Assembly (NCBI RefSeq): GCF_014648275.1
Contig: NZ_BMQU01000021.1
Coordinates: 1-64,000, forward strand
From: Pseudomonas laurentiana
GTDB taxonomy: Bacteria; Pseudomonadota; Gammaproteobacteria; Pseudomonadales; Pseudomonadaceae
DNA: 64,000 nucleotides
Direction of reading: 5' to 3'
Under the pieces are notes generated by a model, which saw nothing but the letters and a program-made list of their open reading frames with translations, ran no database searches and had not been told where the DNA came from. Within the stretch, counting starts at the first letter, position 1; each line of letters starts with the position of its first letter. Shown piece by piece: positions 40,968 to 58,384 of the stretch. The translations under genes were made by a program, and so were the position numbers.

Positions 40968-41435
40968 GACGATCGCTCCAAAGATCGAAGGAATTTCAGC
41001 GGATTCTTCGGCCATCCCGGGCGGGATGAGGCGCGTCTGGATTGTTGTTATCAGAGTGATCCGCTGCTTCTTTATCTCTGAACGGGTTGTTGATCTTGAG
41101 CGTGTAAAACGGGATTTGTGCGATTATCGAACACTGATGGCGTCAATCCACAGCCCGCAGGATTTCGTATGCCCCGTGAACGAGCGTTGAGCCCTGTGCG
41201 CACCGTTTTGATGCGTACGGGTTCCCTTGACGCTGCATGTTGAATGCCGGGTGAAGGCTATTGGCTATTATTTTTTTCGGAAAAATACGCTGTAAATTCC
41301 GTGCTTTTTGGAGGATCTACACGGATAGATGACTTAAATCGACAGTTTCTTTTAGGTTGGATCGTTAGCACGCTTTCAACATGGCGTGGTAATTGCTTTC
41401 TAGTTCGGCGCCCAATGTCGTAGCTGGAGAAGAGA
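40968..41435. other. Divergent region between two MCP genes
   Basis: About 470 bases carrying the promoters of both receptors. I looked for flagellar sigma-28 boxes and found no match good enough to claim. No gene or hairpin is supportable. Confidence 0.4.
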
Positions 41436-43601
41436 ATGTCGCTATCAAGCAATTCCATGCAGTTATCCTCCGCCGAAAAACGCTGGTTGCCTTGGTTTGG
41501 CAAGACCGGAAAACTGGCCATGAACTGGTCGTGCCGTCTCAATCGATCGGCTTACCCGGTGATTGAGCAGACATTCGAAGCGATCGCCGAAACCCGTGTG
41601 AAGCTGCTGCAGAACTGGGCGCGGGAGCAGTGGGAACACCTGGCCGAACTGGCTGCTACCTTGAGCCGCGATGGAACCCAACCTGGCCCGGGTCCATTGC
41701 AGGAGAAGCTGGCCCAGGCCGAAGACTTTTCCGAACTTTTTGTCGTTGACCCCCAGGGCGTCGTCATCGCCTCGACCTGGAATGGTCATGCCGGAAGGTC
41801 GCCGTGCAATGCCAAGGCCCTTGCTGCCGGGTTGCAGGCAGCGTTCCTGCACGGCCCTTACAGTGATCCATTGACGTTGCAGATTGGCCCTTCATCGTCG
41901 CGTTTTCATGACGAAGTCACGCTGATGTTCTATCAACCCCTGAAGGTCGACGGCAAAGTGCTCGGCTGCCTCTGTGGTCGGGTGCCGAACGATGTGCTGG
42001 GTGATTTGATCCAGCGTGAGGCCGGGCACATTTTTGCCGAGTCCGGGGACAACTACCTGTTCATGGTGCAGTCACGCTTCGATCCGGCAGTACAGCCCGG
42101 GGTCGCCTTGTCGCGCTCGCGTTTCGAAGACGGCACTTTTACCCACGGCGAGAACCTCAAGAGCGGCGTACATACGCCCTGGAAAACTGTCCAGGTACAG
42201 CGTCACACCGAACTGGAACTGCGCTTCACCGACCCTTCGACCCAGGAGCTGCATCCCGGTGTGCGCGAAACCATCCGCACGGGCGCCAATTTGTTTGTGA
42301 CCTATCCCGGCTACTCCGACTACCGGCATATTCCGGTGGTGGGCAAGGGCGTCACCTTCCAGTTGCCCGGCTCACCGGACCGTTGGGGCATGATGTGCGA
42401 GGCTGACCTGGAAGAGGTCTATCGCCGCCGTTCGCTGAGCTATGGCCTTATGAAGCCTTACCTGGCGACCATGGCCGGCCTGTTTGGCTGCAACTATCTG
42501 GTTCAACACTACAGTGGCCTTGCCCAAGGGGTGATTGATCTCTGCGAGATGTCGAGCATGCTCGTTGCGGCGTTGCTGTTCCGCTCCCTGGGGCCCAGAC
42601 GCCTGGCCGCACGCCTCACTGAAATGACCGGGGTGATCAGAACCATCGCCGAGGGCGAAGGCAACCTGCGCCAGCGCCTCGACACGTCGCGCATGGCCAA
42701 TGACGAGACGGGTGACATGGGGCGCTGGATCAACAGTTTCATCGACCATCTGGATGCCGTCGTGGGGCAGGTGATCAAGGCCAGTCACAGTGTTGGCAAA
42801 ACCAATCAGCTGATGCTCGGGCGTAGCCAGGCGGCCAGCCTCACGTCTGAAGAAGTTGCCCAGGCGGTACACAGCATGATGATTATCGTCGAAGACCAGT
42901 TGGGCGAGATTCAGCAGGCCTCGGCCAGTGCCGAGCAGATGAAACAGGCCATGGATGAAGTGGTCACCCGTGCCCGCGAGCAATTTTTGGAGGTCCAGGC
43001 GGGCACTCAATCGATTCGTAATGTCGTCGAGCGCTCGTCCTCCAGCGTCCAGTTGCTCGACAGCCGCATGGGCGAGATTGGCACCATCACCGGGCTGATC
43101 AGCGATATCACCAACCAGACCAACCTGCTGGCGCTGAACGCCGCGATCGAGGCGGCGCGCGCCGGCGAGCATGGTCGCGGATTTGCCGTGGTCGCTGATG
43201 AAGTCCGTACCTTGGCGTCGCGCACGTCGAAGGCCGCTGACGATATCCGGCTGATGGTCGAAGGTCTTCAACGTGAAACGCAGCAGGCGGTGGGTTTTAT
43301 GGAAGACGGGGTCAAGGATGTCGACAACAGCCTGCGTCTGGCTGAAGAGGCTTCTTCGGAAAACGTACAACTGCACCAGGCCGTGGAAAACATGTTCGCC
43401 ATCATTCAGCAGTTGAATCAACGCAGCCTGGACTATGGCAAGACCATCAAGCAGGTCGATCAGTCGTCTGCCGAAATGCGCCAGACCGTCACCGTGCTGC
43501 AGACCAGCGCGGAAACCGTCAGGCTCGATGCCAACAAACTGCAGAAGCTGGTCGGGCTGTTTGAGGTGAGCAGCAACGCCCGACAACGGGATGCAGCCTA
43601 G
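41436..43601 (+). CDS. Large methyl-accepting protein with an N-terminal sensor preceding its hydrophobic segments
   Basis: 721 residues; start after tggagaagag. Residues 1-335 form a sensor region with Cache-like features ([46 protein letters not shown]) but no N-terminal signal or first transmembrane helix. Two modest hydrophobic stretches follow (~341-357 and ~372-385), then a HAMP-like segment (~386-450) and an MCP domain with the tip [20 protein letters not shown]. If those stretches make a hairpin, the sensor would face the cytosol. If not, the N terminus may be exported by an unusual route. Its 3' end overlaps the convergent IclR gene by 4 bases. Confidence 0.88.
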
Positions 43602-44410
43602 AGCGTGCTGGTTGAACTGATACCTTGTGGGGTGTTTGCCTTGTGATAGCCGAGCTCTTCGCTGATCTGCGTCGCGCAGTGCATCAGTAGTTCGGTAAAG
43701 CGTGCCTGCGTGCCGTCCGGGTCCATGATCGCATCGGGGCCGGACAGGTTGATCGCTGCGCTAATACGTCCGGTGTGATCGCGTATGCCGGTGGCGATGG
43801 CCGTCGAGTAATCCGAGCGGTGCACGACCCATTGCCGCTCGCGGTCGACGGCTGCGAGCTGTTCCAGCTCCGGTAGGGTGCGCGGCGCAGGCGCTGGGTA
43901 GTCATCAAGACGGACATGCTGGTACAGCAGGCGCAGTTGCGCGGTGCCCAGGTCGCTTAACAGTACGCGACCCATGGCGGTGCAATGGCAGGCGATGCGT
44001 GTGCCAATCGGGATGTTCACTGACAGTCGCTGGGCGGCAAAGGCACGGTAGAGGTACAGGCTGTCAGTCCCTTCCCGGATGCTCAAATGACATGACAGGG
44101 ACGTGCTGTCACGCAGTGCATTGAGGTGCGGCATGGCGATTTCGACGATGTCGCGGCTGGCCAGGTAGCTGAAGCCCGTGGAGATGACCTGAGCGCCCAG
44201 TTCGTATTGGTTGTTGTGTTTCTTCAGGTAGCCCATGTCGGTGAGGGTGTAGAGGATGCGGTAGATGGCCGAATTGCTCACGCCAAGCTGCTCAGCAATT
44301 TCGTTGATGCCCAAGGCGCGGGTTTGAGCGTCAAACAACCCAAGCACGCTGAGCCCACGTTGCAGCGCCGGTACGCTGTAGTCGGTTTCCTTTTCAATGC
44401 TCGACATCAT
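43598..44410 (-). CDS. IclR-family transcriptional regulator
   Basis: About 270 residues from ATG 44410 (or the next codon). The N-terminal winged helix ([20 protein letters not shown]) and the C-terminal effector domain ([31 protein letters not shown]) are standard for IclR. It lies 88 bases downstream of mgdD on the same strand, so it may be the last gene of the methylamine-catabolic unit or a separate regulator of it. It is convergent with the large MCP gene. Effector unknown. Confidence 0.88.
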
Positions 44411-44498
44411 CGGCTCCAGTCGTGGTGCGCGGCAGGGTTGCCCGAGCAGGCCTGGTGGCACTCGGGCGTTGTTCCTCGTTCCAGCCTGTTTGCAGGGT

Positions 44499-45092
44499 TT
44501 AGTGCCTCAAGGCTTCAGGCTCCAGCAGGGCACCATTGAACTCACTCATGGCGTCCAGTACGGCAGCTTTGAAGTAGGCCAGCGAGGCGCGATCGCACAG
44601 CAGTTGGAAACGCGGCAGGTCGATTGGGCCCAGGTTGATCACGATGACGTTGATTCGCGCCGCCGAGGTTTGTGCCACTGCACCGACCGGGAAGGCCTCG
44701 GGGCGCAGGTCGACCCCGCAAAGCTTGGCCATGACCTCGCTGATGCAGGCGCCGCTCAGTTGCAGCCAGGCGTGGCTGTCCTGACGTGGGAGCAGGTAAT
44801 TGGCGTTGTGGTCCAGCTCCCAACTGACTTCTTCATCGGCAATGCGTTGCCCTTGATCGGCCAGGCCACCGAGCAGCAGGTACTCGGTCTGGGACAGGCG
44901 TGCGACCTGGCTACCGTCGGCCTGGAGCACGGCGCGGTTGGGCGCTTCGGGCAGCTCGAAACCGCGTACGCGCAGGTAGTCGGCGCTGTGCGTGCCACGA
45001 AAGCCGATGCGGGGCAGTGCGGTCAGGTCAATCAAGGCGCACTGCTGCAGGGCGCCGACATCGAGTAGAGGCTGTGCGTGCAGGTTAGACAT
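44499..45092 (-). CDS. mgdD: N-methylglutamate dehydrogenase small subunit D (SoxG-like)
   Basis: 197 residues, homologous to the gamma subunit of heterotetrameric sarcosine oxidase (LPRIGFRGTHSADYLR, QTEYLLLGG, SCHAWLQLSG-like region at SHAWLQLSGACISE). It belongs to the GcvT-like fold and packs against the alpha subunit. It starts 3 bases after the mgdC stop. In the pathway context it is best read as MgdD rather than true SoxG; sequence alone cannot separate the two. Confidence 0.82.
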   Translation of the reverse strand: MSNLHAQPLLDVGALQQCALIDLTALPRIGFRGTHSADYLRVRGFELPEAPNRAVLQADGSQVARLSQTEYLLLGGLADQGQRIADEEVSWELDHNANYLLPRQDSHAWLQLSGACISEVMAKLCGVDLRPEAFPVGAVAQTSAARINVIVINLGPIDLPRFQLLCDRASLAYFKAAVLDAMSEFNGALLEPEALRH

Positions 45093-45095
45093 GTC

Positions 45096-47999
45096 TCAGA
45101 GCTCCTGGCGCTGGTTGTCGGGGTCGAAGAACGGCAATTGCACCACGGTGGCCTGAACCACCAGGCCGCCGTCGACGCGGATTGGAATCTGTTGCCCTGG
45201 GGTACTTTGCTCGGGCGCGGCATAGGCCAGGCCGATGATCTGCCCCAGGGTCTGCGAGTGTTCGCAGGAGGTGACGTTGCCGCTGATGTCGGGGCCGTTC
45301 AGTACCAAGTGGCCTTCCAGCGGTTTAGGGCTGCCTGTGGGCAAGGTGAAGCCGACCAGTTTGCGTTTCGCCGGTTGCGCTTGAAGGATGTCCAGCGAGC
45401 GGCGGCCCACGAAGAATGGCTTGCTCCGGTTGATCGCCCAACCCATGTCGATCTCGTCGGGATGGGTCATGCCGTCGGTGTCCTGGCTGATGATCACATG
45501 GCCTTTCTCCAGCCGCAGCAGGCGTTGCGCTTCCACGCCGAAGGGACGGATATCGTAGGCCTTGCCAGCATTCATCAGGGCTTGCCAGAGGGTTGCGCCA
45601 TGGCGCGACGGCACATGGATTTCGTAGCCCAGCTCACCGACGAAGCCGACCCGTAACACGCGGGCCTTGATGCCAGCGACCGTGCCCTGGCGCACGCCCA
45701 GGTAAGGGAAGCCTGCGCTGGACAGGTCAATGTCCGTGCAGAGCGTTTGCAACACCTTGCGCGCGTCCGGCCCGGCCAGGTTCACGGCCGACAGGGCCGC
45801 GGTGACGTTGGCGATATCGACGTTCAGGCGCCATTGGGCGTTCCATTTGAGCATCTGCTGGTAGATGCGATCGACGCCGCTGGTGGTGGCGGTGACGTAG
45901 AAGTGCTGCTCGGCAAAGCGTGCGCAGACACCATCGTCAATCACCACCCCTTGCTCATTGGTCATCAGCGCATAGCGTGAACGGCCTACCGGTTGCTTGA
46001 GGAAGGCAAAGGTGTACAGACGGTTGAGCAACTCGCCGGCGTCCGGTCCGCGCACATCCAGCCCACCGAGCGTGGACACATCGATCAGGCCGACTTTGGT
46101 GCGTACGTGCAGTGCCTCTTGCTGCATGCAGCGTTCGCGTTCACTGGCCTTGCCGTAGTAGGCCGGGCGTTGCCAGATGCCGGCCGGCATCATCTTCGCG
46201 CCGGCGGCCAGGTGCTGCGCGTGCATCGGTGTTTGCCTGAAGGGGTCGAACGCCCGCCCGGCGACGTGGGCCAGTTTCTCTGCCTCGAAGGGTGGGCGGG
46301 CAGTGGTTATCCCGGTTTCACTGACGCTGCGTTGCGTCGACGCCGCGACCAGACGAGCCGTGGGCAACGCCGAGTGACGGCCCTGGGACGGGCCCATGCC
46401 GACGGTGGAGTAACGTTTGACCAACTGGATATCGCGGTAGCCGATCCGGGTCGCATTGATGATGTCGTTGACCTGCAGGTCTTCGTCGAAGTCGACGAAG
46501 TCCTTGCCCTTGGGATGGGGGAAGATAGGCCAAGGAAAGTTGACCCGCGCTTCGGCCTTGAACGACTGCTGCGTCGGGCAGGGTAATGCCAGCGCGGTCA
46601 GGGCCGTGGCAGCAGCATTGGTGGCATCGGCCAGGACGTTGTCCAGGGTATGCCGACCATTGGCGGAACCCGCTACGCCGAGGTTGTTTGGCAGGCCGCT
46701 CAGGGTGAATTCTGCCGCTGCATCGTTGTAGGCCAGCTTGCCGCCAGCCTGGCAGAGCAATTGATACACCGGCATGTAGCCGCCGGACATGCACAGCAGG
46801 TCACAGGCCAGGGTTACGCCGTGGCCGGCCACTTGGCCCTGGCCGGTGATGCTGCGCAGTTCGACGCCCGTGATGTGGCGCATGCCTTTGTCATGCAGGG
46901 CTTCGTAGACAGTCGTCGCAAGGTGGCAACGGATGCTGCGTTTTTCCAAGGCGACGAGCAGATCGCGATTGCTCGGGCCGCTTCGCAGGTCCACCAGTGC
47001 CACAACGTCAACGCCTTGCTCATACAAGTCGAGCGCAGCCAGGTAGCCATCGTCATTGCCGGTGAGCACCACGGCGCGTTTGCCAGGCTTTACGGCATAC
47101 AGCTTCATCAGGCGCTGGGCTGCACTGGTCAGCATCACCCCAGGCAGGTCGTTGTTGCGGAAGATGACGGGCTGGTCGAATGAGCCACTGCAGATCAGGC
47201 ACTGGCTGGCGCGTACCTTGTACAGACGCTTGCCCTGAATCACGGGCAGGTAGTTGTCGGCGAACCAGCCGTTGCAGGTGGCCTGGGTAAGGATGTGGAT
47301 GTTGGCATGCGCTTGGACCGCCTCGATCAACTGGTTGCGCAGGGTGTTGGCGCGTCGGTTGTCGATGTCGAAACGGGCATAGTTCAGCGAGCCACCGAGA
47401 ATCGACTGTTGCTCGACCAGCAACACCTTGGCACCGGCATCGGCAGCGGTCAGTGCGGCTTGCAGGCCGGCCGGGCCTGCACCGATCACCGCAAGGTCGG
47501 CAAACAGGTAGGCCTTGTCGTAGTACTCCGGCTTGAAGTCGAGGTCGAGTACGCCAAGGCCGGCCTTTTTGCGAATGATCGGTTCCCAGAATTTCCAGAT
47601 GCCCTTGGGCTTGTAGAACGAACGGTAATAGAACCCCACCGGCATGAACTTGGAAAACTTGCCCAGGTAGGCGTCCTTGTCGTTTTCCAGCGAGCCGTTG
47701 AAGTTCTGCCCGCTGGCCTCGAGGCCTTGTGTCAACAGTTGGCAGTCGGCCAGGACATTGGGCTCATGGGGTAACTGGATCAGGCTGTTGGCATCTTGCC
47801 CGGCCATGCTCAGCGGGCCGCGTGGGCGGTGGTACTTGAACGAGCGTGACAGTAGAAAGCGGCCATTGGCGAGCAGGGCGCTGGCGATGCTGTCACCCTG
47901 CAGGCCCTGATAGGCGGTGCCATCAAAGCTGAAGGTCAGCGGCTGATTACGATCGATCAGCAGGCCCATGGGGGCCGGAAGGCGATTGGGGAGGCTCAT
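45096..47999 (-). CDS. mgdC: N-methylglutamate dehydrogenase large subunit C (SoxA-like)
   Basis: 967 residues. The N-terminal ferredoxin-like part (FDGTAYQGLQGDSIASALL, then SFKYHRPRGPLSMAGQDAN) is followed by a NAD/FAD Rossmann domain with VIGAGPAGLQAA, a middle segment, and a C-terminal aminomethyltransferase (GcvT-like) domain that binds tetrahydrofolate (DVSTLGGLDVRGPDAGELL, YEIHVPSRHGATLW). It therefore oxidises an N-methyl amino acid with the beta subunit and captures the carbon as methylene-THF. The gene overlaps mgdB by 4 bases. Its setting beside gmaS, mgsABC, folD and purU supports N-methylglutamate as substrate, though sarcosine is the alternative. Confidence 0.88.
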   Translation of the reverse strand: MSLPNRLPAPMGLLIDRNQPLTFSFDGTAYQGLQGDSIASALLANGRFLLSRSFKYHRPRGPLSMAGQDANSLIQLPHEPNVLADCQLLTQGLEASGQNFNGSLENDKDAYLGKFSKFMPVGFYYRSFYKPKGIWKFWEPIIRKKAGLGVLDLDFKPEYYDKAYLFADLAVIGAGPAGLQAALTAADAGAKVLLVEQQSILGGSLNYARFDIDNRRANTLRNQLIEAVQAHANIHILTQATCNGWFADNYLPVIQGKRLYKVRASQCLICSGSFDQPVIFRNNDLPGVMLTSAAQRLMKLYAVKPGKRAVVLTGNDDGYLAALDLYEQGVDVVALVDLRSGPSNRDLLVALEKRSIRCHLATTVYEALHDKGMRHITGVELRSITGQGQVAGHGVTLACDLLCMSGGYMPVYQLLCQAGGKLAYNDAAAEFTLSGLPNNLGVAGSANGRHTLDNVLADATNAAATALTALALPCPTQQSFKAEARVNFPWPIFPHPKGKDFVDFDEDLQVNDIINATRIGYRDIQLVKRYSTVGMGPSQGRHSALPTARLVAASTQRSVSETGITTARPPFEAEKLAHVAGRAFDPFRQTPMHAQHLAAGAKMMPAGIWQRPAYYGKASERERCMQQEALHVRTKVGLIDVSTLGGLDVRGPDAGELLNRLYTFAFLKQPVGRSRYALMTNEQGVVIDDGVCARFAEQHFYVTATTSGVDRIYQQMLKWNAQWRLNVDIANVTAALSAVNLAGPDARKVLQTLCTDIDLSSAGFPYLGVRQGTVAGIKARVLRVGFVGELGYEIHVPSRHGATLWQALMNAGKAYDIRPFGVEAQRLLRLEKGHVIISQDTDGMTHPDEIDMGWAINRSKPFFVGRRSLDILQAQPAKRKLVGFTLPTGSPKPLEGHLVLNGPDISGNVTSCEHSQTLGQIIGLAYAAPEQSTPGQQIPIRVDGGLVVQATVVQLPFFDPDNQRQEL

Positions 48000-48301
48000 C
48001 CTGCGATCTCCTGCGGTTGCGCGGCAGTGAACTCAACCCGCGTGCTGAACAGTTCCCGAGGGTCGAAGGTGCGGATAATGTCGTCAGTCACGGTGTGGCG
48101 TTCAGCCAGAAACCAGTAGCTGGAGGGGGTGTGCATCCACCATTCGCGAACCACGCCGAGGGTGTCCTCGCTGTTGAAGACATAGGCCGCCCATTCACTG
48201 TCGCTGCAGGTATCCGGGTTCGGCATTGGCTTGAACTCGCCACCGTAGGTGAACTCGCTGATGTTGCGAGGCCCATTGAGCGGGCAAATCATGACTTTCA
48301 T
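47996..48301 (-). CDS. mgdB: N-methylglutamate dehydrogenase small subunit B (SoxD-like) with altered zinc site
   Basis: About 101 residues from ATG 48301. It is the delta subunit of the sarcosine-oxidase-type complex (CPLNGPRNISEFTYGGE, EWWMHTPSSYWFL). In Stenotrophomonas/Corynebacterium-type enzymes zinc is held by Cys6, Cys9, His59 and Cys63; here Cys6 and the His (57) remain, but position 9 is Asn and the fourth site (61) is Ser. The zinc is therefore probably lost. It begins 13 bases after the mgdA stop and overlaps mgdC by 4. Confidence 0.82.
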   Translation of the reverse strand: MKVMICPLNGPRNISEFTYGGEFKPMPNPDTCSDSEWAAYVFNSEDTLGVVREWWMHTPSSYWFLAERHTVTDDIIRTFDPRELFSTRVEFTAAQPQEIAG

Positions 48302-48314
48302 CTCACGCTCTCCG

Positions 48315-49556
48315 TTAGTGGCTGGCCGCCGTAGCGCCCATTTCGTTGACTTGGGCAAAGGTCGAGAAACGCTCCAGGCCGAAGGGTTTGATCAGGTCCG
48401 GCACCTTGCCGCCACTGGCCACCAGCTCGGCCATGGTCTTGCCGCAGATGGGTGTGGACTTGAAGCCCCAGGTGCCCCAGCCGGCGTCCAGGTAATAGTT
48501 CTTCACGGGTGACAGTCCCATGATCGGGCTGTAGTCCGGGGTCATGTCGGTGATCCCGGCCCATTGGCGCATCAGTTTGGCGTTGGCCAGAAACGGGAAC
48601 ATTTCGATCGCGTGGGCCAGCAGGCTTTCCTTGAGGTCGAGGGTCGAGCGGGTGTTGAACAGGGGATACGGGTCCGAGCCACCACCAAACACCACTTCGC
48701 CACGGCCAGTCTGCTGCACGTAACAGTGCAGCGCCGAGGAGCTCACCAACGGGTCAAGAAAGGGCTTGAACGGTTGAGTGACCATCGCTTGCAGGGGAAA
48801 GGTCTGGATAGGGGAGCGAATGCCGGCCTTTTTCATCATCTGCGAGCTCATGCCCGCGACGGCCTGCACGACGCAGCCACAGCGCACCGTGCCACGGTTG
48901 GTTTTCACCGCGCTGATTGTGCCGTTTTCGATGACCAGTTCCTGAACCTCGGTCAACTGATGGATTTCTACCCCCCGTTTGGCTGCCTGCTTGGCGTAGC
49001 CCCACGCCACCGCGTCGTGACGCGCCGTGGCACCGTCGAGATGCCAGAGACCTGCCAGTACCGGCAGATGACCCGGGTCCAGGTTCAAGGTCGGCACCAG
49101 TTCGCGGATCTGCTGGCGATCGATCATTTCGGTTCGCCCGCCGAAGTGTTTGTTCACCTCGGCACGCTGGCGGAATGCACGCACGGTAGCGTCGGTGTGG
49201 GCCAGGGTCAGTTGGCCGCGTTCCGAATACATGATGTTGAAGTCAAATTCGTTAGACAGACCCTGGAACATTTTGACCGACTCGGCGTAGAACTTGACGC
49301 CCTCGCTGGTCAGGTAGTTGGAGCGAATCACTGCGGTGTTGCGAGCAGTGTTGCCACCGCCCAGGTATGACTTTTCCAGTACGGCAATGTTGTTGATGCC
49401 GTGGTAGCGGGAAAGGTAATACGCCGTTGCCAGTCCATGACCACCGCCGCCGATGATGACCACGTCGTAGGCGGGCTTGAGCTCTTTTGGCGCGGGCAAG
49501 TCCACGTCCACCGGGTATTCCGAACTCAGCCCGTATTTCAGTAGGTTGAAAGGCAT
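48315..49556 (-). CDS. mgdA: N-methylglutamate dehydrogenase beta subunit A (SoxB-like flavoprotein)
   Basis: 413 residues. The FAD site near the N terminus is [19 protein letters not shown], and the covalent-FMN His of sarcosine oxidase is preserved as His180 in ARHDAVAWG. The C-terminal ADP-binding end ([13 protein letters not shown]) is standard for the family. This subunit oxidises the N-methyl group and passes electrons onward. Its start overlaps folD by 19 bases, so translation is coupled to the C1 enzymes. The pathway assignment to methylamine rests on the neighbours gmaS and mgsABC. Confidence 0.88.
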
Positions 49557-50437
49557 ACGGCCTCCGATTGACTGCTCAGGGCTTGCTGCCGGGCAGCGGC
49601 CACCGTGTTTTTCATCAGGAAGGCGATGGTCATTGGCCCCACACCGCCAGGTACCGGCGTGATCGCTGCAACCTTGGGCAGGGCACTGTCGAAATCGACA
49701 TCGCCGACCAGCCGGCTACGACCGTTGTCGTCAATACGGTTGATACCGACATCAATGACCACGGCACCCTCCTTGAGCCACGAACCATCGATCAGCCGTG
49801 GTCGCCCGACGGCGGCGATGACAATGTCGGCGAGCTGGCACAAGGCTTTGGCGTCGGCACTGCGCGAGTGAACCACGGTCACCGAGCAATGGGCCTTGAG
49901 CAGCAAGGCGGCCATGGGCTTGCCGACGATGTTCGAACGGCCGATGACCACGGCGTGTTTACCGCTCAGGTCGCCAAGGGTCTGTTCAAGCAGGTACAGG
50001 CAGCCGCTGGGGGTACAGGGCGTCAGTACGTCGCGGCCCTGGCTCAGGCCGCCGACGTTTTCGCTGTGAAAACCGTCGACATCCTTGCTCGGCGCAATGG
50101 CTTGCAGGGCACGGGTTTCCTCGATGTGTGGCGGCAATGGCAGTTGCAGGAGCAGGCCATGTACGTGCGGGTCGTCGTTGAGCGTGCCGATCAATGCCAA
50201 CAGCTCGGTTTCGCGGGTGGTGGCGGGCAGTCGGTACTCCAGCGAGCGGATACCGGCTTCCTCTGCCCGCAGAATTTTGTTGCGTACATAAACGTGGCTG
50301 GCCGGATCGTCACCTACCAGGATCACCGCCAGTGCCGGTTCGATACCGTCGGCTTTCAGCGTTCGGACATCCTCGCGTACCTGTTGCAGCACCTGTGCGG
50401 CAGCAACCTTGCCATCAATCAGTTTCAGCGGGCTCAT
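49538..50437 (-). CDS. folD: Methylene-THF dehydrogenase/cyclohydrolase
   Basis: 299 residues, full length. Motifs include [14 protein letters not shown] (substrate Tyr-Lys pair), [11 protein letters not shown], the NADP segment [14 protein letters not shown] and [12 protein letters not shown]. FolD converts methylene-THF to formyl-THF. As part of this unit it handles the C1 produced by the Mgd complex. It overlaps purU by 4 bases and mgdA by 19. This is probably a catabolic copy in addition to the housekeeping one. Confidence 0.95.
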
Positions 50438-51300
50438 CGGAAGATCACCGTTCTGTCGTGGTTAAGGAAAACGCGGTGTTCCAGGTGGTATTTCACCGCC
50501 TTGGAGAGGGCGACGGTTTCGGTGTCCCGTCCGGTGGCGACCAGATCGTCCGGCTGGTAGACATGGTCGACCCGCTGTACCTCCTGCTCGATGATCGGCC
50601 CTTCATCCAGGTCGCTGGTGACGTAGTGGGCGGTTGCACCGATCAGCTTTACCCCGCGTTGGTAGGCCTGGTGGTAAGGCTTGGCACCTTTGAATCCGGG
50701 CAGGAAAGAGTGGTGGATGTTGATCGCCCGGCCTGACAGTTGCCGGCACAGGTCGTCTGAGAGGACTTGCATGTAGCGGGCGAGTACCACCAGATCGGTG
50801 CAGGTTTCATCAATGATCTTCATCAGTTCGGCTTCCTGCTGCGCCTTGGTGTCCTTGGTCACAGGCAGGTAGATGAAGCGAATCCCTTCTCGTTCGGCCA
50901 TGGGCCGCAGGTCCAGATGGTTCGAGACGATGGCCGTGATGGTCATGTCCATCTCGCCTTTGTGGTAGCGGTAGAGCAAGTCGGTCAGGCAATGGTCGAA
51001 CTTGCTGACCATCAGCAGCACGCGCATCGGCTCACGGGTATCGAAGAGCTCCCAGTGCATGTCGAAGCCGTCGGCGACGGCCTGGAACGCGTGCTTGAGC
51101 TGGTCAATATCGCCGTCGTGACCGTCGTTGAAACGAAACACCGCACGCATGAAGAATTTACCGCTGAACTCATCGTCAAACTGCGCCATTTCTCCGATGT
51201 AGCAGCCGTTTTCCGCGAGGTAGGAGGTCACGGCGGCGACGATGCCTGATGTCGCCGGGCAGCTGATCTTGAGAATGAACGGGTTCTTTTCGTGTTGCAT
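50434..51300 (-). CDS. purU: Formyltetrahydrofolate deformylase
   Basis: 288 residues: an N-terminal ACT domain ([20 protein letters not shown]) and a formyltransferase-fold catalytic domain with SNHLDL, the conserved [14 protein letters not shown] and DEGPIIEQ. PurU hydrolyses 10-formyl-THF to formate and THF, thereby regenerating THF for the Mgd complex. It is the first gene of the leftward unit purU-folD-mgdABCD and has an XRE-type operator about 93 bases before its start. Confidence 0.94.
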
Positions 51301-51690
51301 GGCTGGTCCTCGGAAAGATGGCGGCAGGTCATCGCAGAGCGGAAAAGTTCATCAATGAAATCGTTTTTTGCGGGCCAATAAAAATCACCCTTGGGAATAA
51401 AATATTCCTGTGGTTGCTTTTATAGGTGAAGGAAGGCCGTAGCGTCCAGTGATTTTTGGAAACTTTTTTTACTTACAGGAATTTTTAGGCGGCCGGCCGA
51501 GACCCGGTGCAGAGCGTGGAGTCATTGCGTAGTGGGTCGCCGTAAAAGGCGGCGCCGGCCGGTGGTGCCGCCGCAGCGAATGGATAGGTTCACGAGGCGA
51601 GAGCCGCACGTCACGAGCGTGTATCGCCTCTGAAGGGCCTTCCTTGTTCTCACCCTCACGGCGCAGGAGAGGGTTTTACTTGAATGCGGA
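51301..51690. other. Promoter region of the purU-mgd unit
   Basis: 390 bases between the XRE-cupin stop and the purU start. It holds the palindrome at 51393-51409, plus a T/A-rich stretch before it. The DNA nearer the XRE gene (51500-51690) shows nothing clear. Confidence 0.5.
51393..51409. promoter_or_regulatory. Operator GGGAAT-N5-ATTCCT before purU
   Basis: A 17-bp palindrome sharing the form GGGAAW-N5-WTTCCY with two sites between the XRE gene and gmaS, hence a likely XRE-cupin binding site. It lies ~93 bases upstream of the purU ATG. Confidence 0.6.
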
Positions 51691-52290
51691 TTACTCGTTC
51701 TGGTTGCCGTAGTTCATGATCGACAGGAGGCGAATCGGCACCTGCACCAGTTGCTCCGGCCCGTGGGGAACCTCCCCGTCGAAGGTCAGGCTGTCACCCG
51801 CTTCCATGCGGTACAGCTGATTGCCATGCCGGTAGATCAGTTCACCTTCAAGCAGATGGAGAAACTCGGTGCCGGGGTGGGAGAAGGTCGGGAACTCTTC
51901 GCTGGCGTCATCCATGCTCACCATGTAGGCCTCGAAGTTCTTCTTTGGCCCACGGGTATGGTTGAGCAGGTGATAGGTGTGACCTTTCTCGGTTCCCCGC
52001 CTGACCACTTCAAGGCCTTCGCCAGCCTTGACCAGCAGGGCGCTGCTGCCTTGTTGATCGTACTGGCTGAACAGTTTCGACATGGGCATGCCCAGCACGT
52101 CGCAAAGACGGCTGAGGGTGTCGAGGCTGGTGGATACCTGGGCGTTTTCGATCTTGCTCAGCATGCCTTGGCTGATACCGGCGATACGGGCGACGTCGGC
52201 CAGTTTCAGTTCCTGGGCCTGGCGCTGACGTTTGATCTGCATGCCCAAGTACTGCTCGAGCTTCAGTCGGGGTTGCGTTTCATCGGTCAT
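51691..52290 (-). CDS. XRE-family regulator with cupin domain, methylamine pathway
   Basis: About 199 residues from ATG 52290 (six codons inside a longer frame). The N-terminal helix-turn-helix is typical (LKLADVARIAGISQGMLSKIE, DTLSRLCDVLGMPMS), and the C-terminal half is a small cupin (FPTFSHPGTEFLHLLEGEL, GDSLTFDGEVPHGPEQL) that should bind a small ligand. This PuuR-like layout controls amine catabolism in other bacteria. It sits between the two methylamine units and should read its own operators. The inducer might be gamma-glutamylmethylamide or N-methylglutamate, but this is inference. Confidence 0.88.
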   Translation of the reverse strand: MTDETQPRLKLEQYLGMQIKRQRQAQELKLADVARIAGISQGMLSKIENAQVSTSLDTLSRLCDVLGMPMSKLFSQYDQQGSSALLVKAGEGLEVVRRGTEKGHTYHLLNHTRGPKKNFEAYMVSMDDASEEFPTFSHPGTEFLHLLEGELIYRHGNQLYRMEAGDSLTFDGEVPHGPEQLVQVPIRLLSIMNYGNQNE

Positions 52291-52394
52291 CGTAATCACA
52301 GCCTGCACTATTTCTTTTCAATAATTTTATATTCGCACCAGGAATGTGCGATGTACATCCCTGTCGAGCACGTCCACCCTCGATTATTCGCGGT

Positions 52395-52411
52395 GGGAAA
52401 GCAAGTTTCCC
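52395..52411. promoter_or_regulatory. Operator GGGAAA-N5-TTTCCC before the XRE gene
   Basis: A perfect 17-bp palindrome about 105 bases before the XRE-cupin start, probably for autoregulation. Confidence 0.6.
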
Positions 52412-52466
52412 ATATAGACAGCAGCAACGCTCCCCTTCGCGCACTCAGGTCAGGGGTATCCAAGAG

Positions 52467-52483
52467 TTGGCAAGCTGATTGCA
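52467..52483 (+). promoter_or_regulatory. Sigma-54-type promoter of gmaS
   Basis: TTGGCAAG-N4-TTGCA, which differs from the consensus TTGGCACG-N4-TTGCW at one position. GG and GC are spaced 12 bases apart as required. The expected start is near 52494, 95 bases before the gmaS ATG. No activator site is proven. Confidence 0.55.
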
Positions 52484-52517
52484 TTCCTATTGGGAAAGTA
52501 ACTTTCCTGATTGGAAT
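52483..52517. promoter_or_regulatory. Nested 35-bp palindrome at the gmaS transcription start
   Basis: The 17-bp core GGGAAAGTAACTTTCCT (52492-52508) is centred in a wider palindrome bounded by ATTCC and GGAAT. It overlaps the predicted sigma-54 start, so a bound regulator should block transcription. Confidence 0.6.
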
Positions 52518-52588
52518 AATGTGGTTGTCAGGGAAGTCAGGCGTTTCAACCTTCCACAACGCTTTGCCTTTCACGAGGAGTGAGATCC

Positions 52589-53923
52589 ATGTTGCCACCA
52601 GATACCCAGCATTTGATCGAGAAGCATGGGATCAAGTACGTGCTGGCTCAGTTCGTTGATATTCACGGTTCGGCGAAGACCAAGTCAGTGCCGGTTTCTG
52701 GCCTGAAAATGGTTGCCGAAGAAGGTGCGGGCTTTGCGGGATTCGCCATCTGCGGCATGGGCATGGAGCCGCATGGCCCCGACTTCATGGCCCGGGGCGA
52801 TCTGTCGACGCTGACGCCGGTTCCGTGGCAGCCAGGCTATGGCCGTATCGTGTGCATCGGTCATGTCGATGGCAAGCCCCATCCCTATGACAGCCGTTAT
52901 GTCTTGCAGCAGCAAATCAAACGCCTGAGCGATAAGGGCTGGACGCTCAACACCGGGCTGGAGCCGGAGTTCAACCTGATGCGCCGCGATGAGCAGGGCC
53001 GCCTGCAACTGGTGGACAGCAGCGATACCCTGGACAAACCCTGCTACGACTATAAGGGCTTGTCGCGTTCACGGGTATTTCTTGAGCGCCTGACCGAAGC
53101 CTTGCAACCGGTGGGTTTTGACATCTACCAGATTGACCATGAAGACGCCAACGGTCAGTTCGAGATCAATTACACCTACAGCGATGCAATGGAGTCCGCG
53201 GATCGCTTCACCTTCTTCCGTATGGCAGCGGGTGAAATTGCCAACGACCTGGGCATGATTTGCTCGTTCATGCCCAAGCCCGACCCGAAACGGGCCGGCA
53301 ACGGGATGCACTTTCACCTGTCGATTGCCAGCGCTGAAAACAAGAACCTGTTCCACGATGCCAGTGACCCGAGCGGCATGGGCCTGTCGAAACTGGCTTA
53401 CCACTTTGCCGCCGGCCTGCTGGCGCATGGCCCGGCGCTGTGCGCCTTTGCAGCACCCACGGTCAACTCCTACAAGCGCCTGGTGGTCGGTCAATCGCTG
53501 TCTGGCGCAACCTGGGCTCCGGCGTTTATCGCCTTTGGCGCCAACAACCGTTCTGCGATGGTTCGTGTGCCGTACGGCCGCCTGGAGTTTCGTTTGCCCG
53601 ATGCGGGTTGCAACCCTTACCTGGTGAGCGCGGCAATCATCGCCGCAGGCCTGGACGGCATCGACCGCAGGCTCGAAATCGACAAGGTCTGCAACGAGAA
53701 CCTCTACAAGCTCAGCCTTGAAGAGATCGCCGCACGCGGCATCAAGACCTTGCCGCAATCACTCAAGGAAGCCTGTGATGCCCTGGAGGCCGACCCCCTG
53801 TTCGCTGAGGTCATGGGGCCGGAGATTGTGGGCGAATTCATCCGCCTCAAGCGCATGGAGTGGGTGGAATACAGCCGCCATGTGAGCGACTGGGAGATCC
53901 AGCGCTACACCGAGTTTTTCTGA
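52589..53923 (+). CDS. gmaS: Gamma-glutamylmethylamide synthetase (GlnT/GMAS)
   Basis: 444 residues from ATG 52589, with gaggag upstream. It is a glutamine-synthetase homologue of the GlnT type ([24 protein letters not shown] with metal Glu, [21 protein letters not shown], the late [11 protein letters not shown]). Its reaction is expected to be glutamate plus methylamine plus ATP to gamma-glutamylmethylamide. The tyrosine adenylylation site of ordinary GlnA is not expected. It begins the rightward unit gmaS-mgsABC, so the methylamine assignment is stronger here than in a lone glnT. Annotation as glnT or glnIII would be equivalent. Confidence 0.9.
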
Positions 53924-53990
53924 TTCGTTAATCAACCGTTCCTGACGCCCGGTGAGTGGGGAGGGCGTCTTCTGCCCTGGAGTTTCTAAT

Positions 53991-54896
53991 ATGTGTGGAA
54001 TCGTGGGTCTTTACCTGAAAAACCCCAAGCTTGAATCCCAGTTGGGCAAGCTGTTTGAACCCATGCTCGAGGCTATGACGGATCGTGGTCCGGACAGTGC
54101 CGGATTTGCCATCTACGGTGATGAAGTGGCAGAGGGTTGGGTCAAGCTGACCTTGCAGGCAACCACCGAGGGGTATGACTTCAAGGCGTTGGTTGCCGCC
54201 GTCGAGGCCCGTCTGGGTTGCGCGCTGGACTGGTTTCAGAACGCCAGTGCCATTGTCCTCAAAGTGCAGGCCGACGAAGCAGCGGTTCGGGCCGTGTTGG
54301 CCGAGCTGGCGCCCAGTGTGCGCATCATGAGCGCCGGGCAGAGCATCGAGATTCTCAAAGGCATGGGTTTGCCCAAAGAGATCTCTGAGCGTTTCGGCCT
54401 GGCCAGCATGAAAGGCAGTCACATCATCGGTCACACCCGCATGGCCACTGAAAGCGCGGTGACCATGGAAGGTAGCCATCCGTTTTCCACCGGTGCCGAC
54501 CTGTGCCTGGTGCATAACGGCTCGCTTTCCAACCACTCGCGCCTGCGCCAGAACCTGCGCCGCGAAGGGATCACCTTTGAAACCGAGAACGACACCGAAG
54601 TGGCCGCCGGTTACCTGACCTGGCGCCTGCAGCAGGGCGACACGCTCAAGCAAGCGCTGGACAAGTCGCTGGAAGACCTCGATGGCTTCTTCACCTTTGC
54701 AATTGGCACGCGCAACGGCTTTGCCGTGATCCGCGACCCGATTGCCTGCAAGCCGGCGATCCTTGCCGAGACCGACGATTACGTTGCCATGGCCTCGGAG
54801 TATCAGGCGTTGTCCAGCCTGCCAGGTATCGAGAATGCCAAGGTCTGGGAACCGGTCCCGGCCACCATGTACATCTGGGAACGCGAGTCGGCTTAA
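53991..54896 (+). CDS. mgsA: N-methylglutamate synthase subunit A (GlxB-like, Ntn amidotransferase)
   Basis: About 301 residues from ATG 53991, giving Cys2 as the N-terminal nucleophile (MCGIVGLYLKNPK). The class II amidotransferase features follow: TDRGPDSAGFA, GHTRMATES, LVHNGSLSNHSRLR and ENDTEVAAGYL. It should release methylamine from gamma-glutamylmethylamide and pass it by channel to the synthase subunit, as the glutaminase domain does with ammonia in glutamate synthase. It follows gmaS after 67 bases. Confidence 0.88.
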   Translation: MCGIVGLYLKNPKLESQLGKLFEPMLEAMTDRGPDSAGFAIYGDEVAEGWVKLTLQATTEGYDFKALVAAVEARLGCALDWFQNASAIVLKVQADEAAVRAVLAELAPSVRIMSAGQSIEILKGMGLPKEISERFGLASMKGSHIIGHTRMATESAVTMEGSHPFSTGADLCLVHNGSLSNHSRLRQNLRREGITFETENDTEVAAGYLTWRLQQGDTLKQALDKSLEDLDGFFTFAIGTRNGFAVIRDPIACKPAILAETDDYVAMASEYQALSSLPGIENAKVWEPVPATMYIWERESA

Positions 54897-54907
54897 GGAG
54901 CACGCAC

Positions 54908-55591
54908 ATGAAAACCATCGATTTGTCCAACGCCTCCGTGCGTGATCTGAACCAGGCCCTGCACGACCAGGCCAAGCATGTGGACGACCGTGAATGGGTC
55001 GTGACTCACCCTGACGGTGCACACAACCTGGCGGTCGGGGTCAACCAGGAGGTCTCCATCGATATTCAGGGCCACGCCGGTTACTACTGCGCAGGCATGA
55101 ACCAGAAAGCCTCGGTCACCGTGCACGGCAACGTTGGTGTCGGCTGTGCCGAGAACATGATGTCGGGGTATGTGCGGGTCAAGGGCAGCGCCTCGCAAGC
55201 GGCAGGCGCCACGGCACATGGCGGCCTGCTGGTGATCGAGGGGGATGCGGGCGCACGCTGCGGCATTTCCATGAAAGGCATCGACATCGTGGTCGGCGGC
55301 AGTATCGGTCACATGAGCTGCTTCATGGGGCAGGCCGGTCGTCTGGTGGTGTGTGGCGATGCCGGCGATGCGCTGGGCGACTCGCTGTACGAAACCCGCA
55401 TCTATGTCAAAGGCAAGGTCGAGTCGCTGGGTTCGGACTGCATTGCCAAGGAAATGCGTGCCGAGCACCTGGAAGAGCTGCAGCAATTGCTTGATCGCGC
55501 CGGCTTCAACGAAAAGGCCGCTGACTTCAAGCGTTATGGCTCAGCCCGCCAGCTGTACAACTTCAAAGTCGATAACGCTTCCGCGTACTGA
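54908..55591 (+). CDS. mgsB: N-methylglutamate synthase subunit B (GlxC-like, GXGXG)
   Basis: 227 residues, matching the C-terminal GXGXG beta-helix of glutamate synthase: GHAGYYCAGMNQKA, GNVGVGCAENMMSGY, HGGLLVIEGDAGARCGISMKG, GQAGRLVVCGDAGD. This domain is structural and helps the ammonia/methylamine tunnel in GltB. Separate as a subunit here, as in GlxBCD sets. It starts 11 bases after mgsA and ends 15 before mgsC. Confidence 0.88.
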   Translation: MKTIDLSNASVRDLNQALHDQAKHVDDREWVVTHPDGAHNLAVGVNQEVSIDIQGHAGYYCAGMNQKASVTVHGNVGVGCAENMMSGYVRVKGSASQAAGATAHGGLLVIEGDAGARCGISMKGIDIVVGGSIGHMSCFMGQAGRLVVCGDAGDALGDSLYETRIYVKGKVESLGSDCIAKEMRAEHLEELQQLLDRAGFNEKAADFKRYGSARQLYNFKVDNASAY

Positions 55592-55606: not shown

Positions 55607-56929
55607 ATGAGCGAAAAGACCCCTCCGGTGCTGCGCGAGTCCGCCACCTTCGACCGTCTGGCCATTCAGGAAATCCAGCGTGCTGCCGAAACCGGCATCT
55701 ACGACATCCGCGGCGGTGGCACCAAGCGCAAGCTGCCGCATTTTGACGACCTGCTGCTACTCGGTGCCAGCGTTTCGCGTTATCCGCTGGAAGGCTACCG
55801 CGAGAAATGCGGCACTGATGTTGTGCTCGGCAACCGCTTTGCCAAGAAGCCGATTCACCTGAAAATTCCCGTGACCATTGCCGGGATGAGCTTCGGCGCC
55901 TTGTCGGCCAACGCCAAGGAGGCGCTGGGCCGTGGCGCGACCATCGCCGGAACCAGCACCACCACAGGCGATGGCGGCATGACCCCGGAAGAGCGCGGCC
56001 AGTCGCAGCACCTCGTGTATCAGTACCTGCCATCGCGCTATGGCATGAACCCGGACGATCTGCGCAAGGCTGATGCCATCGAGATCGTTTTGGGGCAGGG
56101 CGCCAAGCCGGGTGGTGGCGGTATGTTGCTGGGCATGAAGGTGACCGAGCGGGTCGCGGGTATGCGCACCTTGCCGATTGGTGTCGATCAGCGCAGTGCC
56201 TGCCGCCACCCGGACTGGACCGGGCCGGACGACCTGGCGATCAAGATTGCCGAGATCCGTGAAATCACCGACTGGGAAAAGCCCATCTACGTGAAGATCG
56301 GTGCCAGCCGCCCGTATTACGACGTCAAGCTGGCGGTCAAGGCCGGGGCTGACGTGATTGTCCTCGACGGTATGCAGGGCGGCACGGCGGCGACCCAGGA
56401 GGTGTTCATCGAGCATGTAGGCATTCCGATCCTGCCAGCCATCCCGCAAGCGGTACAGGCTTTGCAAGAGATGGGCATGCACCGCAAGGTGCAGTTGATT
56501 GTCTCTGGGGGTATCCGCAACGGCGCCGATGTCGCCAAGGCCATGGCGTTGGGTGCGGATGCTGTTGCAATCGGCACTGCGGCACTGATTGCGCTGGGGG
56601 ACAACCACCCGCGCCTGGATGAGGAACTGAAGAAAATCGGCTCGGCCGCTGGCTTCTACGACGACTGGCAAAATGGTCGAGACCCTGCGGGCATCACGAC
56701 CCAGGACCCGGAGCTGTCCAAGCGCCTGGATCCGGTCGAAGGTGGGCGCCGTCTGGCCAACTACCTGCGGGTGTTGGTGCTTGAGGCGCAAACCATGGCG
56801 CGCGCCTGCGGCAAGTCGCACCTGCACAACCTCGACCCTGAGGACCTGGTGGCCTTGACGGTGGAAGCGGCTGCAATGGCACGGGTGCCGCTGGCTGGCA
56901 CCCATTGGATACCTGGCCAGCAGTACTGA
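55607..56929 (+). CDS. mgsC: N-methylglutamate synthase subunit C (GlxD-like, FMN synthase)
   Basis: 440 residues, matching the FMN-binding synthase domain of GltB. Motifs include VTIAGMSFGALSANAKEA, TSTTTGDGGMTPEERG, ILGQGAKPGGGGMLLGM-like VLGQGAKPGGGGMLL and the phosphate-binding IVSGGIRNGADVAKAMALGA. It combines 2-oxoglutarate with the released methylamine to make N-methylglutamate. The [3Fe-4S] cysteine cluster of GltB is not evident, so electron supply may differ. Confidence 0.88.
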   Translation: MSEKTPPVLRESATFDRLAIQEIQRAAETGIYDIRGGGTKRKLPHFDDLLLLGASVSRYPLEGYREKCGTDVVLGNRFAKKPIHLKIPVTIAGMSFGALSANAKEALGRGATIAGTSTTTGDGGMTPEERGQSQHLVYQYLPSRYGMNPDDLRKADAIEIVLGQGAKPGGGGMLLGMKVTERVAGMRTLPIGVDQRSACRHPDWTGPDDLAIKIAEIREITDWEKPIYVKIGASRPYYDVKLAVKAGADVIVLDGMQGGTAATQEVFIEHVGIPILPAIPQAVQALQEMGMHRKVQLIVSGGIRNGADVAKAMALGADAVAIGTAALIALGDNHPRLDEELKKIGSAAGFYDDWQNGRDPAGITTQDPELSKRLDPVEGGRRLANYLRVLVLEAQTMARACGKSHLHNLDPEDLVALTVEAAAMARVPLAGTHWIPGQQY

Positions 56930-57058: not shown

Positions 57059-58384
57059 ATGGTCAAGCGCTTTTCTGGCAATCTCCTCCTGAGCCTGGTT
57101 GCATTGGCTGCGGTTGTACCGCTGGCCCAGGCGGCCGATGCCCCGACACTCAACACCGGCAGTACCGCCTGGATGATCAGTGCCGCGGTGCTGGTACTGT
57201 TCATGTGTCTGCCGGGCCTGGCGCTGTTCTACGGTGGCCTGGTGCGGGCCAAGAACATGCTTTCGCTGTTTACCCAGTGTTTCGGTATCGCCGGTCTGGT
57301 GGGCGTGCTGTGGGTGATCTATGGCTACAGCATGGTGGTCGATACCACCGGGATGGTTGAAGGGGAGGTGACCTTCAACAGTTTTGTCGGTGGCCTGAGC
57401 CGCGCAATGTTGGCAGGCATGACGCCTGACAGCCTGGTCGGCGACATTCCCGAGGGTGTCTACGTCACCTTCCAGATGACGTTCGCCATCATTACCCCGG
57501 CGTTGATCGCGGGTGCTTTCGCCGAGCGCATGAAGTTTTCGGCGGCGCTGTTGTTCATGGCCTTGTGGTTCACCCTGGTATACGCACCGGTGGCGCATAT
57601 GGTCTGGGGTGGGGCCGGAGCGTTGATGCACAACTGGGGTGTGCTGGATTACGCAGGCGGAACAGCGGTGCACATCAATGCCGGGGTGGCAGCGCTCGCC
57701 GCATGCCTGATGCTCGGCAAGCGCAAGGGCTATGCCAATACGCCGATGCCAGCCCATAACCTGAGCCTGACCATGGTCGGTGCGGCCATGCTCTGGGTGG
57801 GTTGGTTCGGCTTCAATATCGGTTCGGGCGGTGGCCTTGCCGGCGTCTCCGGGATTGTGATGCTTAACACCCAACTGGCTGCATGCGCCGGCATCCTCGG
57901 CTGGATGTTCACCGAATGGTTCAAGGTCGGTAAACCCAGTGCGTTGGGCCTGGCCAGCGGTGCCTTGGCCGGCTTGGTCGGTATTACCCCGGCGTGTGCC
58001 TACGTGGGAGTTGGCGGTGCCTTGGCCATTGGCGTGTTGTGCGGCGTGCTCTGTTACTTGAGCGTCACCGTGCTGAAACGGCGTCTGGGTTATGACGACA
58101 GCCTCGACGTATTTGGTCTGCATGGTATCGGCGGCATCATTGGCGCGCTGCTGACCGGTGTGTTTTGCGTACCGTCCATGGGTGGGTTGGTTGAGGGCGT
58201 GAGCATGGGCGCGCAGGTATGGGCGCAGGTTCAGGGTGTTTTGATGACCACGGTGTATTGCTTTGTGGTCAGCTGGCTCATTCTGAAAGCGGTGAGTGCG
58301 TTGACGGGCTTGCGTGCCGATGAATCGGTGGAGGAGATGGGACTCGACCTCGCCGAGCACAACGAGCGGGCATACAACCATTGA
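57059..58384 (+). CDS. amt: Ammonium (methylammonium) transporter, Amt family
   Basis: 441 residues with a signal peptide (LLLSLVALAAVVPLAQA) and 11 helices. The twin-His pore pair is present (GGTAVHINAG and FGLHGIGG), as are the entry features NWGVLDYAGG and GFNIGSGGG. Amt channels take up ammonium and also methylammonium, which fits the pathway. It follows mgsC after a hairpin and shares its strand. No GlnK gene is present, unlike the usual amtB unit, which supports a dedicated methylamine role. Confidence 0.93.
   Translation: MVKRFSGNLLLSLVALAAVVPLAQAADAPTLNTGSTAWMISAAVLVLFMCLPGLALFYGGLVRAKNMLSLFTQCFGIAGLVGVLWVIYGYSMVVDTTGMVEGEVTFNSFVGGLSRAMLAGMTPDSLVGDIPEGVYVTFQMTFAIITPALIAGAFAERMKFSAALLFMALWFTLVYAPVAHMVWGGAGALMHNWGVLDYAGGTAVHINAGVAALAACLMLGKRKGYANTPMPAHNLSLTMVGAAMLWVGWFGFNIGSGGGLAGVSGIVMLNTQLAACAGILGWMFTEWFKVGKPSALGLASGALAGLVGITPACAYVGVGGALAIGVLCGVLCYLSVTVLKRRLGYDDSLDVFGLHGIGGIIGALLTGVFCVPSMGGLVEGVSMGAQVWAQVQGVLMTTVYCFVVSWLILKAVSALTGLRADESVEEMGLDLAEHNERAYNH

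Follow-up and report, generated by a model that had tools for sequence, protein, structure and literature searches.

A conserved, probable tandem operator overlapping a predicted sigma-54 promoter in the N-methylglutamate gene cluster of Pseudomonas laurentiana

We analysed a window of 64,000 nucleotides (nt) from Pseudomonas laurentiana (contig NZ_BMQU01000021.1 of assembly GCF_014648275.1, positions 1-64,000; genome, 5.21 Mb) that holds a complete N-methylglutamate cluster for the use of methylamine, a common nitrogen compound. gmaS, mgsABC, and mgdABCD are all present, mgdD by position alone. The cluster includes a gene for a protein with an XRE-type helix-turn-helix domain and a cupin domain (PF01381 and PF07883, both above cut-off), flanked by gmaS-mgsABC-amt to the right and by purU-folD-mgdABCD to the left (Table 1). 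An earlier note on this DNA had described three 17-bp palindromes of the form GGGAAW-N5-WTTCCY, lying before purU, the XRE-cupin gene, and gmaS. We found these at 51393-51409, 52395-52411, and 52492-52508, and the gene names were upheld by profile scores over the cut-offs; the 35-bp nested palindrome described around the gmaS site, running from ATTCC to GGAAT, spans 52483-52517. We refer to the operators at the XRE-cupin gene, gmaS, and purU as O1, O2, and O3. Three features had been overlooked: a degenerate operator upstream of purU (O4), a sigma-70-like purU promoter, and a site that overlaps an NtrC-like sequence (O0). In the open-licence PubMed Central papers that our searches reached, we saw neither a description of this arrangement nor, for Pseudomonas and related gammaproteobacteria, of any regulator of the gmaS pathway. 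Judged by genome comparison, the arrangement of operators and promoters is real, strongly conserved, and functionally interpretable.

Exact matches to the 17-bp motif number three in the genome; together they span no more than 1.1 kb, and one of them matches on both strands. The reversed pattern likewise has three genome matches, and the match count is therefore unremarkable. AGGAAW-N5-WTTCCT has no exact match in the whole genome, and its reversed form has four. By an arithmetic estimate, three sites would fall within 1.1 kb about 2 times in 10 million under uniform placement. We concluded that the signal is the clustering of exact matches, not their number. A count allowing up to two mismatches was rejected as evidence (24 in the window versus 19.9 expected [standard deviation, 5.8]; 26 of 100 shuffles reach 24).

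We compared 149 genomes of the genus, calling the XRE-cupin protein at an E value of ≤1e-20 and GmaS at ≤1e-120. Each protein was found in 37 genomes, and the two sets of genomes were identical. A total of 38 loci were taken, with one genome (G065) carrying two gmaS-XRE clusters (L091 and L096), each with the module defined below. One damaged locus (L097), in which the XRE-cupin gene is split and GmaS is truncated, was dropped, leaving 37 loci for the site counts. As had been predicted in the earlier note, a sigma-54-type element, TTGGCAAG-N4-TTGCA, lies under the gmaS operator at 52467-52483, with its GG and GC 12 bp apart, and the predicted gmaS start, near 52494, falls within the 35-bp palindrome. 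A sigma-54 pattern on its own was rejected as evidence, being too common (44 genome matches versus 22 for the reversed pattern); this loose pattern is weak by itself, and the gmaS element is supported because it is conserved. TGGC[AC]-N6-TTGC was present in the first 30 of 30 genus loci and in all 37 site-counted loci; it was not found at the damaged locus. Upstream of gmaS in 37/37 loci, TGGCA-N6-TTGC is followed by ATTCC-N5-GGAAA-N5-TTTCC-N5-GGAAT, and each of the four O2 half-sites agrees in at least 4 of its 5 bases. The inner O2 site begins 25 bp (33 loci) or 26 bp (4 loci) after TGGC.

The sigma-54 element joined to the tandem site, which we call the module, was recovered by pattern in 36 of the 37 XRE-positive genomes, missing the damaged one (G080), and in none of the 112 XRE-negative genus genomes; the reversed pattern had no match. 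The four-half-site pattern was found in 33 of 149 genomes, all of them among the 37. Because both patterns had been built on loci known beforehand, the absences are the informative result. One four-half-site match lies away from gmaS (L154, 2665-2697; G085 contig 69), before a urea/amide-type ABC transporter gene that adjoins a second UrtA-like receptor gene. The genome of the window also has a second module, with a sigma-54 element and tandem WTTC-N7-GAAW sites, on contig 3 at 40520-40570 (L236 and L237), before an amt-glnK operon. Its first unit has one mismatch, and it is the only non-gmaS match among 38; the Amt encoded there is 46% identical to that of the window, and a purU copy (85%) lies nearby.

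In class-level relatives, the convergent GGAA operator was mostly missing, with scores of 9 to 10 in 8 of 15 loci scanned, mostly single 9s (L031, L032, L035, L036, L038, L042, and L059 are included; only L032 has a full 10). This led the search to a divergent unit. We scanned spacings in the region upstream of the XRE-cupin gene, using a block shuffle of single bases as the control, with relatives not thinned. Among 51 distant loci (<62% identity), WTTC-N7-GAAW was present in 16, versus 0.8 expected, and other divergent spacings were present in 0 to 3. The divergent N7 spacing was seen in 14 and the convergent N5 spacing in 11 of the 15 intermediate loci, and both were seen in all 36 near loci. 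O1 keeps its left unit in 36/37 loci, and O3 keeps one or the other unit in 30/36 (O3 and O4 were counted in 36 loci). The deeper unit is thus likely, if not settled, to be a dimer site, WTTC-N7-GAAW, of which gmaS has two copies 20 bp apart, and the 17-bp palindrome appears to be mostly the seam of two adjoining units. Several observations weigh against this unit. In the distant loci, convergent spacings of 5 and 14 are likewise above the 0.7 expected (5 and 7 loci, respectively), and 30 of these 51 show no TTC-N7-GAA upstream of the XRE-cupin gene (some of these genes follow another gene). Moreover, 6 of 36 O3 sites lack any unit scoring at least 9, yet the convergent pair is kept in 35 of 36, and O3 of the window has the convergent pair alone intact, its right outer half, GTGAT, being poor.

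These observations bear on an alternative to which we assign a minor chance, namely, that each dimer occupies the convergent palindrome GGAAW-N5-WTTCC, with the outer half-sites supplying additional contacts. The convergent pair scores at least 9 of 10 in 34/37 O1, 37/37 O2, and 35/36 O3 sites, and O3 of the window matches it better. However, the distant loci have the divergent N7 spacing in 16 cases and the convergent N5 spacing in 5, all 37 loci conserve the O2 outer halves, and the palindrome of the footprinted XRE-cupin protein DbuR, ATTC-N10-GAAT, is also divergent, with a wider spacing (PMC12724383). As the operator unit, the 17-bp palindrome of the earlier note fared unevenly: the spacing scan favours WTTC-N7-GAAW, whereas O3 of the window fits the palindrome better.

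The purU promoter looks sigma-70-like, because TATAAA is preceded by a TGGAC-like -35 element; TATAAA stands 14 to 17 nt before the O3 inner half-site in 35/36 loci (L149 lacks TATAAA and is outside the 36; the purU start is misplaced in L148 and L152, and their distances are approximate). In this cluster, the claim of a sigma-54 promoter under the operator therefore appears to hold for gmaS, with its conserved element, and not for purU, that is, for one half of the pathway only. O4 lies about 46 to 48 nt before TATAAA in 30/36 loci; its left half is perfect in 32/36, and the remainder is weak, with a unit scoring at least 9 in 18/36. Where purU lies beside or near the XRE-cupin gene, the upstream site scores 9 or 10 of 10 in 25/25 loci. 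Where it does not, no site within 600 bp scores above 8 in any of the 13 loci (at L084 and L094, the contig may just end), and mgdA is located elsewhere in all 13 genomes. Two of the 13 are not true separations: the G051 cluster spans the record start, and a contig break probably lies between the genes in G048. Seven of 11 detached purU-mgd operons keep a site scoring 9 to 10 before purU. The others count against a shared operator, two having a score of 8 of 10, one a one-base-shorter variant, and one no site. Overall, genome comparison supports the claim that one operator type precedes gmaS, the XRE-cupin gene, and purU.

An NtrC-like sequence, GCAC-N7-GTGC, lies upstream in 36/37 genus loci (it is absent in L096) and also precedes glnK in the genome of the window. 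Its spacing agrees with the GC-N11-GC that a study of P. stutzeri gives for NtrC sites (PMC8443478). Because this sequence overlaps a WTTC-N7-GAAW site in 31 of the 36 loci, repressor and activator may compete there; at O0 of the window, the two are offset by 4 bp. Two relatives in other families (L098 and L099) have GCAC-N7-GTGC without the overlap. O0 and O1 are 54 to 56 bp apart in 25 loci, 44 to 45 bp in 9, 24 bp in 1, and 107 bp in 1 (n = 36), and this difference of about one helical turn between species (34/36) is suggestive only. The spacing of O1 and O2 has no helical phasing, so we make no claim of looping there. A published result weighs against nitrogen control by NtrC: an ntrC mutant of P. 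stutzeri A1501, a strain that may or may not carry gmaS, used methylamine better than the wild type (PMC8443478).

Beyond the genus, we looked for the module in the best 80 of 584 relatives found, some of them the same strains as genus genomes, allowing up to 3 mismatches in 16 positions. The module occurs at an offset of 15 or 16 in 52 of these 80, whereas offsets of 5 to 14 and 17 to 30 gave 0 to 3 loci. Among these best 80 of 584, it was present at an offset of 15 or 16 in 36/36 Pseudomonas-type loci and in 16/17 loci from Acinetobacter, Halochromatium, and Oceanospirillales, and the module was found in 0/27 from betaproteobacteria, cyanobacteria, and others. Of 22 class-level loci, 2 have the module and 16 have Mgs or Mgd homologues beside or near the XRE-cupin gene. 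The search found no viral relatives. The module precedes purU-mgd in Halochromatium and Nitrincola, an amt-like gene in Nitrincola and, in weaker form, Acinetobacter indicus, and a GcvT/trimethylamine N-oxide demethylase-like gene in Neptunomonas. Neither the amt-like nor the demethylase-like genes reach the curated cut-offs of the respective families; the module positions at these genes are L199 reverse complement (rc) 728, L195 4857, and L198 rc 1194.

The XRE-cupin protein is the likely binder, as the earlier note had supposed, given its occurrence with GmaS in the same 37/149 genomes, the operators at detached purU-mgd operons, and a covariation of recognition helix and half-site. Palindromic sites (sites, not binding) were found in the promoters of the XRE-cupin gene itself and of its neighbours. 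For proteins with Q47 (the recognition-helix residue preceding GM), the fifth base of the half-site is C in 214 cases, T in 71, G in 45, and A in 38; for R47 proteins, it is A in 18, C in 5, T in 5, and G in 2. These counts point to the XRE-cupin protein as the reader of the fifth base. It weighs against this that the covariation follows phylogeny and that related sequences are non-independent.

We think it improbable that the XRE-cupin protein is an activator or has a dual role, rather than being a simple repressor. Roseobacter does control the same pathway by an AraC-type activator, TmaR (PMC13390433), and growth of Methyloversatilis on methylamine raises the pathway genes along with a putative regulator (PMC5023235), but here the sites lie at or downstream of the predicted starts, and the seven P. 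aeruginosa XRE-cupin proteins that have been tested are inhibitors (PMC7901475). Very unlikely, in our judgement, is binding by another regulator, such as the IclR-type protein encoded at 43598-44461 or one encoded elsewhere, with the XRE-cupin protein as a passenger. Such a regulator would fit the operators before purU-mgd operons far from the XRE-cupin gene. Against it, the XRE-cupin gene alone adjoins the operators in the 37 intact genus loci and the distant mgs/mgd clades (other regulators were not searched for systematically), and the half-site base varies with the XRE recognition-helix residue. It is scarcely credible that the palindromes act as RNA hairpins at transcript 5' ends, in stability or translation: all three do lie near predicted starts, but among 35 distinct gmaS sites the two central bases (columns 6/10) are complementary in 6 (7 counting standard pairs, versus 14.6 expected for standard pairs), the half-site letters are invariant and do not covary, distant loci carry the same half-sites around other centres, and the left outer half would not be transcribed, because it is upstream of the predicted start.

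We propose that the XRE-cupin protein represses the N-methylglutamate pathway of methylamine utilization and that one dimer of it would read WTTC-N7-GAAW. At gmaS-mgsABC-amt, two dimers would sit side by side, 20 bp (two helical turns) apart, from the -12 element to about +24, and would keep sigma-54 RNA polymerase off the promoter, or hold it locked there, until they are released by a pathway metabolite. NtrC at the upstream GCAC-N7-GTGC would then fire the promoter only under nitrogen limitation, and expression of gmaS would require both a shortage of nitrogen and the presence of methylamine. At purU-folD-mgdABCD, the repressor would cover the start of the sigma-70-like promoter and the weaker upstream site, and at its own gene it would cover the start, giving autorepression. 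The model as a whole seems to us probable: the comparison displays the sites, their spacing, positions, conservation, and co-occurrence, and the protein-DNA covariation, and binding, repression, an inducer, the use of NtrC and sigma-54, and the start sites are inferred. Operator, regulator, and promoter are now defined and testable, and the predicted regulon extends to the amt-like and demethylase-like genes. More doubtful, though possible, is that the repressor gates the sigma-54 promoter twice, by tandem dimers at the -12 element and start and by a dimer at O0 on the NtrC enhancer, within a module portable before unrelated one-carbon nitrogen genes (gmaS, purU-mgd, amt, and demethylase-like). 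If so, a nitrogen-AND-substrate logic would have been copied as one piece of DNA. The merged module would offer a clean system for studying how a repressor silences a polymerase able to wait in a closed complex.

The XRE-cupin proteins published for P. aeruginosa act as repressors at a local scale, on palindromes in core promoters near their own genes (PMC7901475), and DbuR protects 44 bp that include its ATTC-N10-GAAT palindrome (PMC12724383). The protein studied here resembles PauR, PsdR, ErfA, and DbuR in its XRE helix-turn-helix and cupin domains, its adjoining putative targets, the palindromes in their core promoters, and its suspected autoregulation (PMC7901475, PMC12724383). It differs from them in the proposed WTTC-N7-GAAW site, the tandem arrangement, and the predicted sigma-54 promoter; the excerpts of those two papers contain no sigma-54 (RpoN, zero mentions) and no glutamine synthetase or methyl- target. 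A repressor on a sigma-54 promoter had been called an unusual logic, but it is not new in kind. In the hut system of Pseudomonas, a substrate-specific local repressor, HutC, likewise acts together with NtrC/sigma-54 (NtrC/CbrB at hutU) through overlapping binding sequences (PMC8871633). HutC, however, is of the GntR type, and the present operator has one base in common with the -12 element and keeps a fixed register across orders. The TmaR protein of Ruegeria pomeroyi similarly controls gmaS-mgs and mgd operons (PMC13390433) but is an activator of the AraC family. E. coli PuuR has the same domain layout, and its family, NF007408, is the best NCBIfam match of the XRE-cupin protein. However, the score of 62.5 bits is far under the PuuR cut-off of 211, and the pathway is different.

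Table 1. Genes and predicted regulatory features of the N-methylglutamate cluster in the window
Feature	Position	Strand	Basis or remark
mgdD/soxG-like, last gene of N-methylglutamate dehydrogenase operon	44499..45092	-	position and synteny in relatives
mgdC/soxA-like	45096..47999	-	SO_alpha_A3, GCV_T; TIGR01372 867 bits, under soxA cut-off 1164
mgdB/soxD-like	47996..48358	-	PF04267
mgdA/soxB-like	48315..49556	-	TIGR01373 454 bits, under soxB cut-off 529
folD	49538..50437	-	NF010790 above cut-off
purU	50434..51300	-	TIGR00655 above cut-off
O3, purU operator	51384..51409	-	inner palindrome 51393-51409 perfect; right outer half GTGAT 51384-51388 weak
Sigma-70-like purU promoter TGGACG-N18-TATAAA (predicted)	51419..51448	-	
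O4, degenerate operator ATTCC-N5-GTAAA-N5-TTTCC, upstream of purU -35	51458..51482	-	
XRE-cupin regulator gene	51691..52290	-	start ATG 52290; GTG 52308 possible alternative
O0, WTTC-N7-GAAW 52331-52345 overlapping NtrC-like GCAC-N7-GTGC 52335-52349	52331..52349	.	
O1, at XRE promoter	52386..52411	.	unit 52386-52400 (left half ATTCG imperfect) and half-site 52406-52410
TATATG, predicted XRE -10, abuts O1	52411..52416	-	predicted
Sigma-54 -24/-12 element of gmaS (predicted)	52467..52483	+	sequence and conservation
O2 unit D1, ATTCC-N5-GGAAA	52483..52497	.	base 52483 common to D1 and -12 element
O2 unit D2, TTTCC-N5-GGAAT	52503..52517	.	20 bp from D1
gmaS	52589..53923	+	TIGR03105 663 bits (cut-off 470)
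mgsA	53952..54896	+	GATase domain; synteny
mgsB	54908..55591	+	GXGXG
mgsC	55607..56929	+	Glu_synthase PF01645
amt	57059..58384	+	TIGR00836 above cut-off

Pfam and NCBIfam scans of the mgdD/soxG-like protein gave no match; mgdD has been described as very divergent (PMC5023235). The solved chain nearest to GmaS is 9qur, "Glutamate--methylamine ligase" (669 bits). Two chemoreceptor (MCP) genes and the IclR-type regulator gene adjoin the mgd operon, in the region from 39342-43601 onward.

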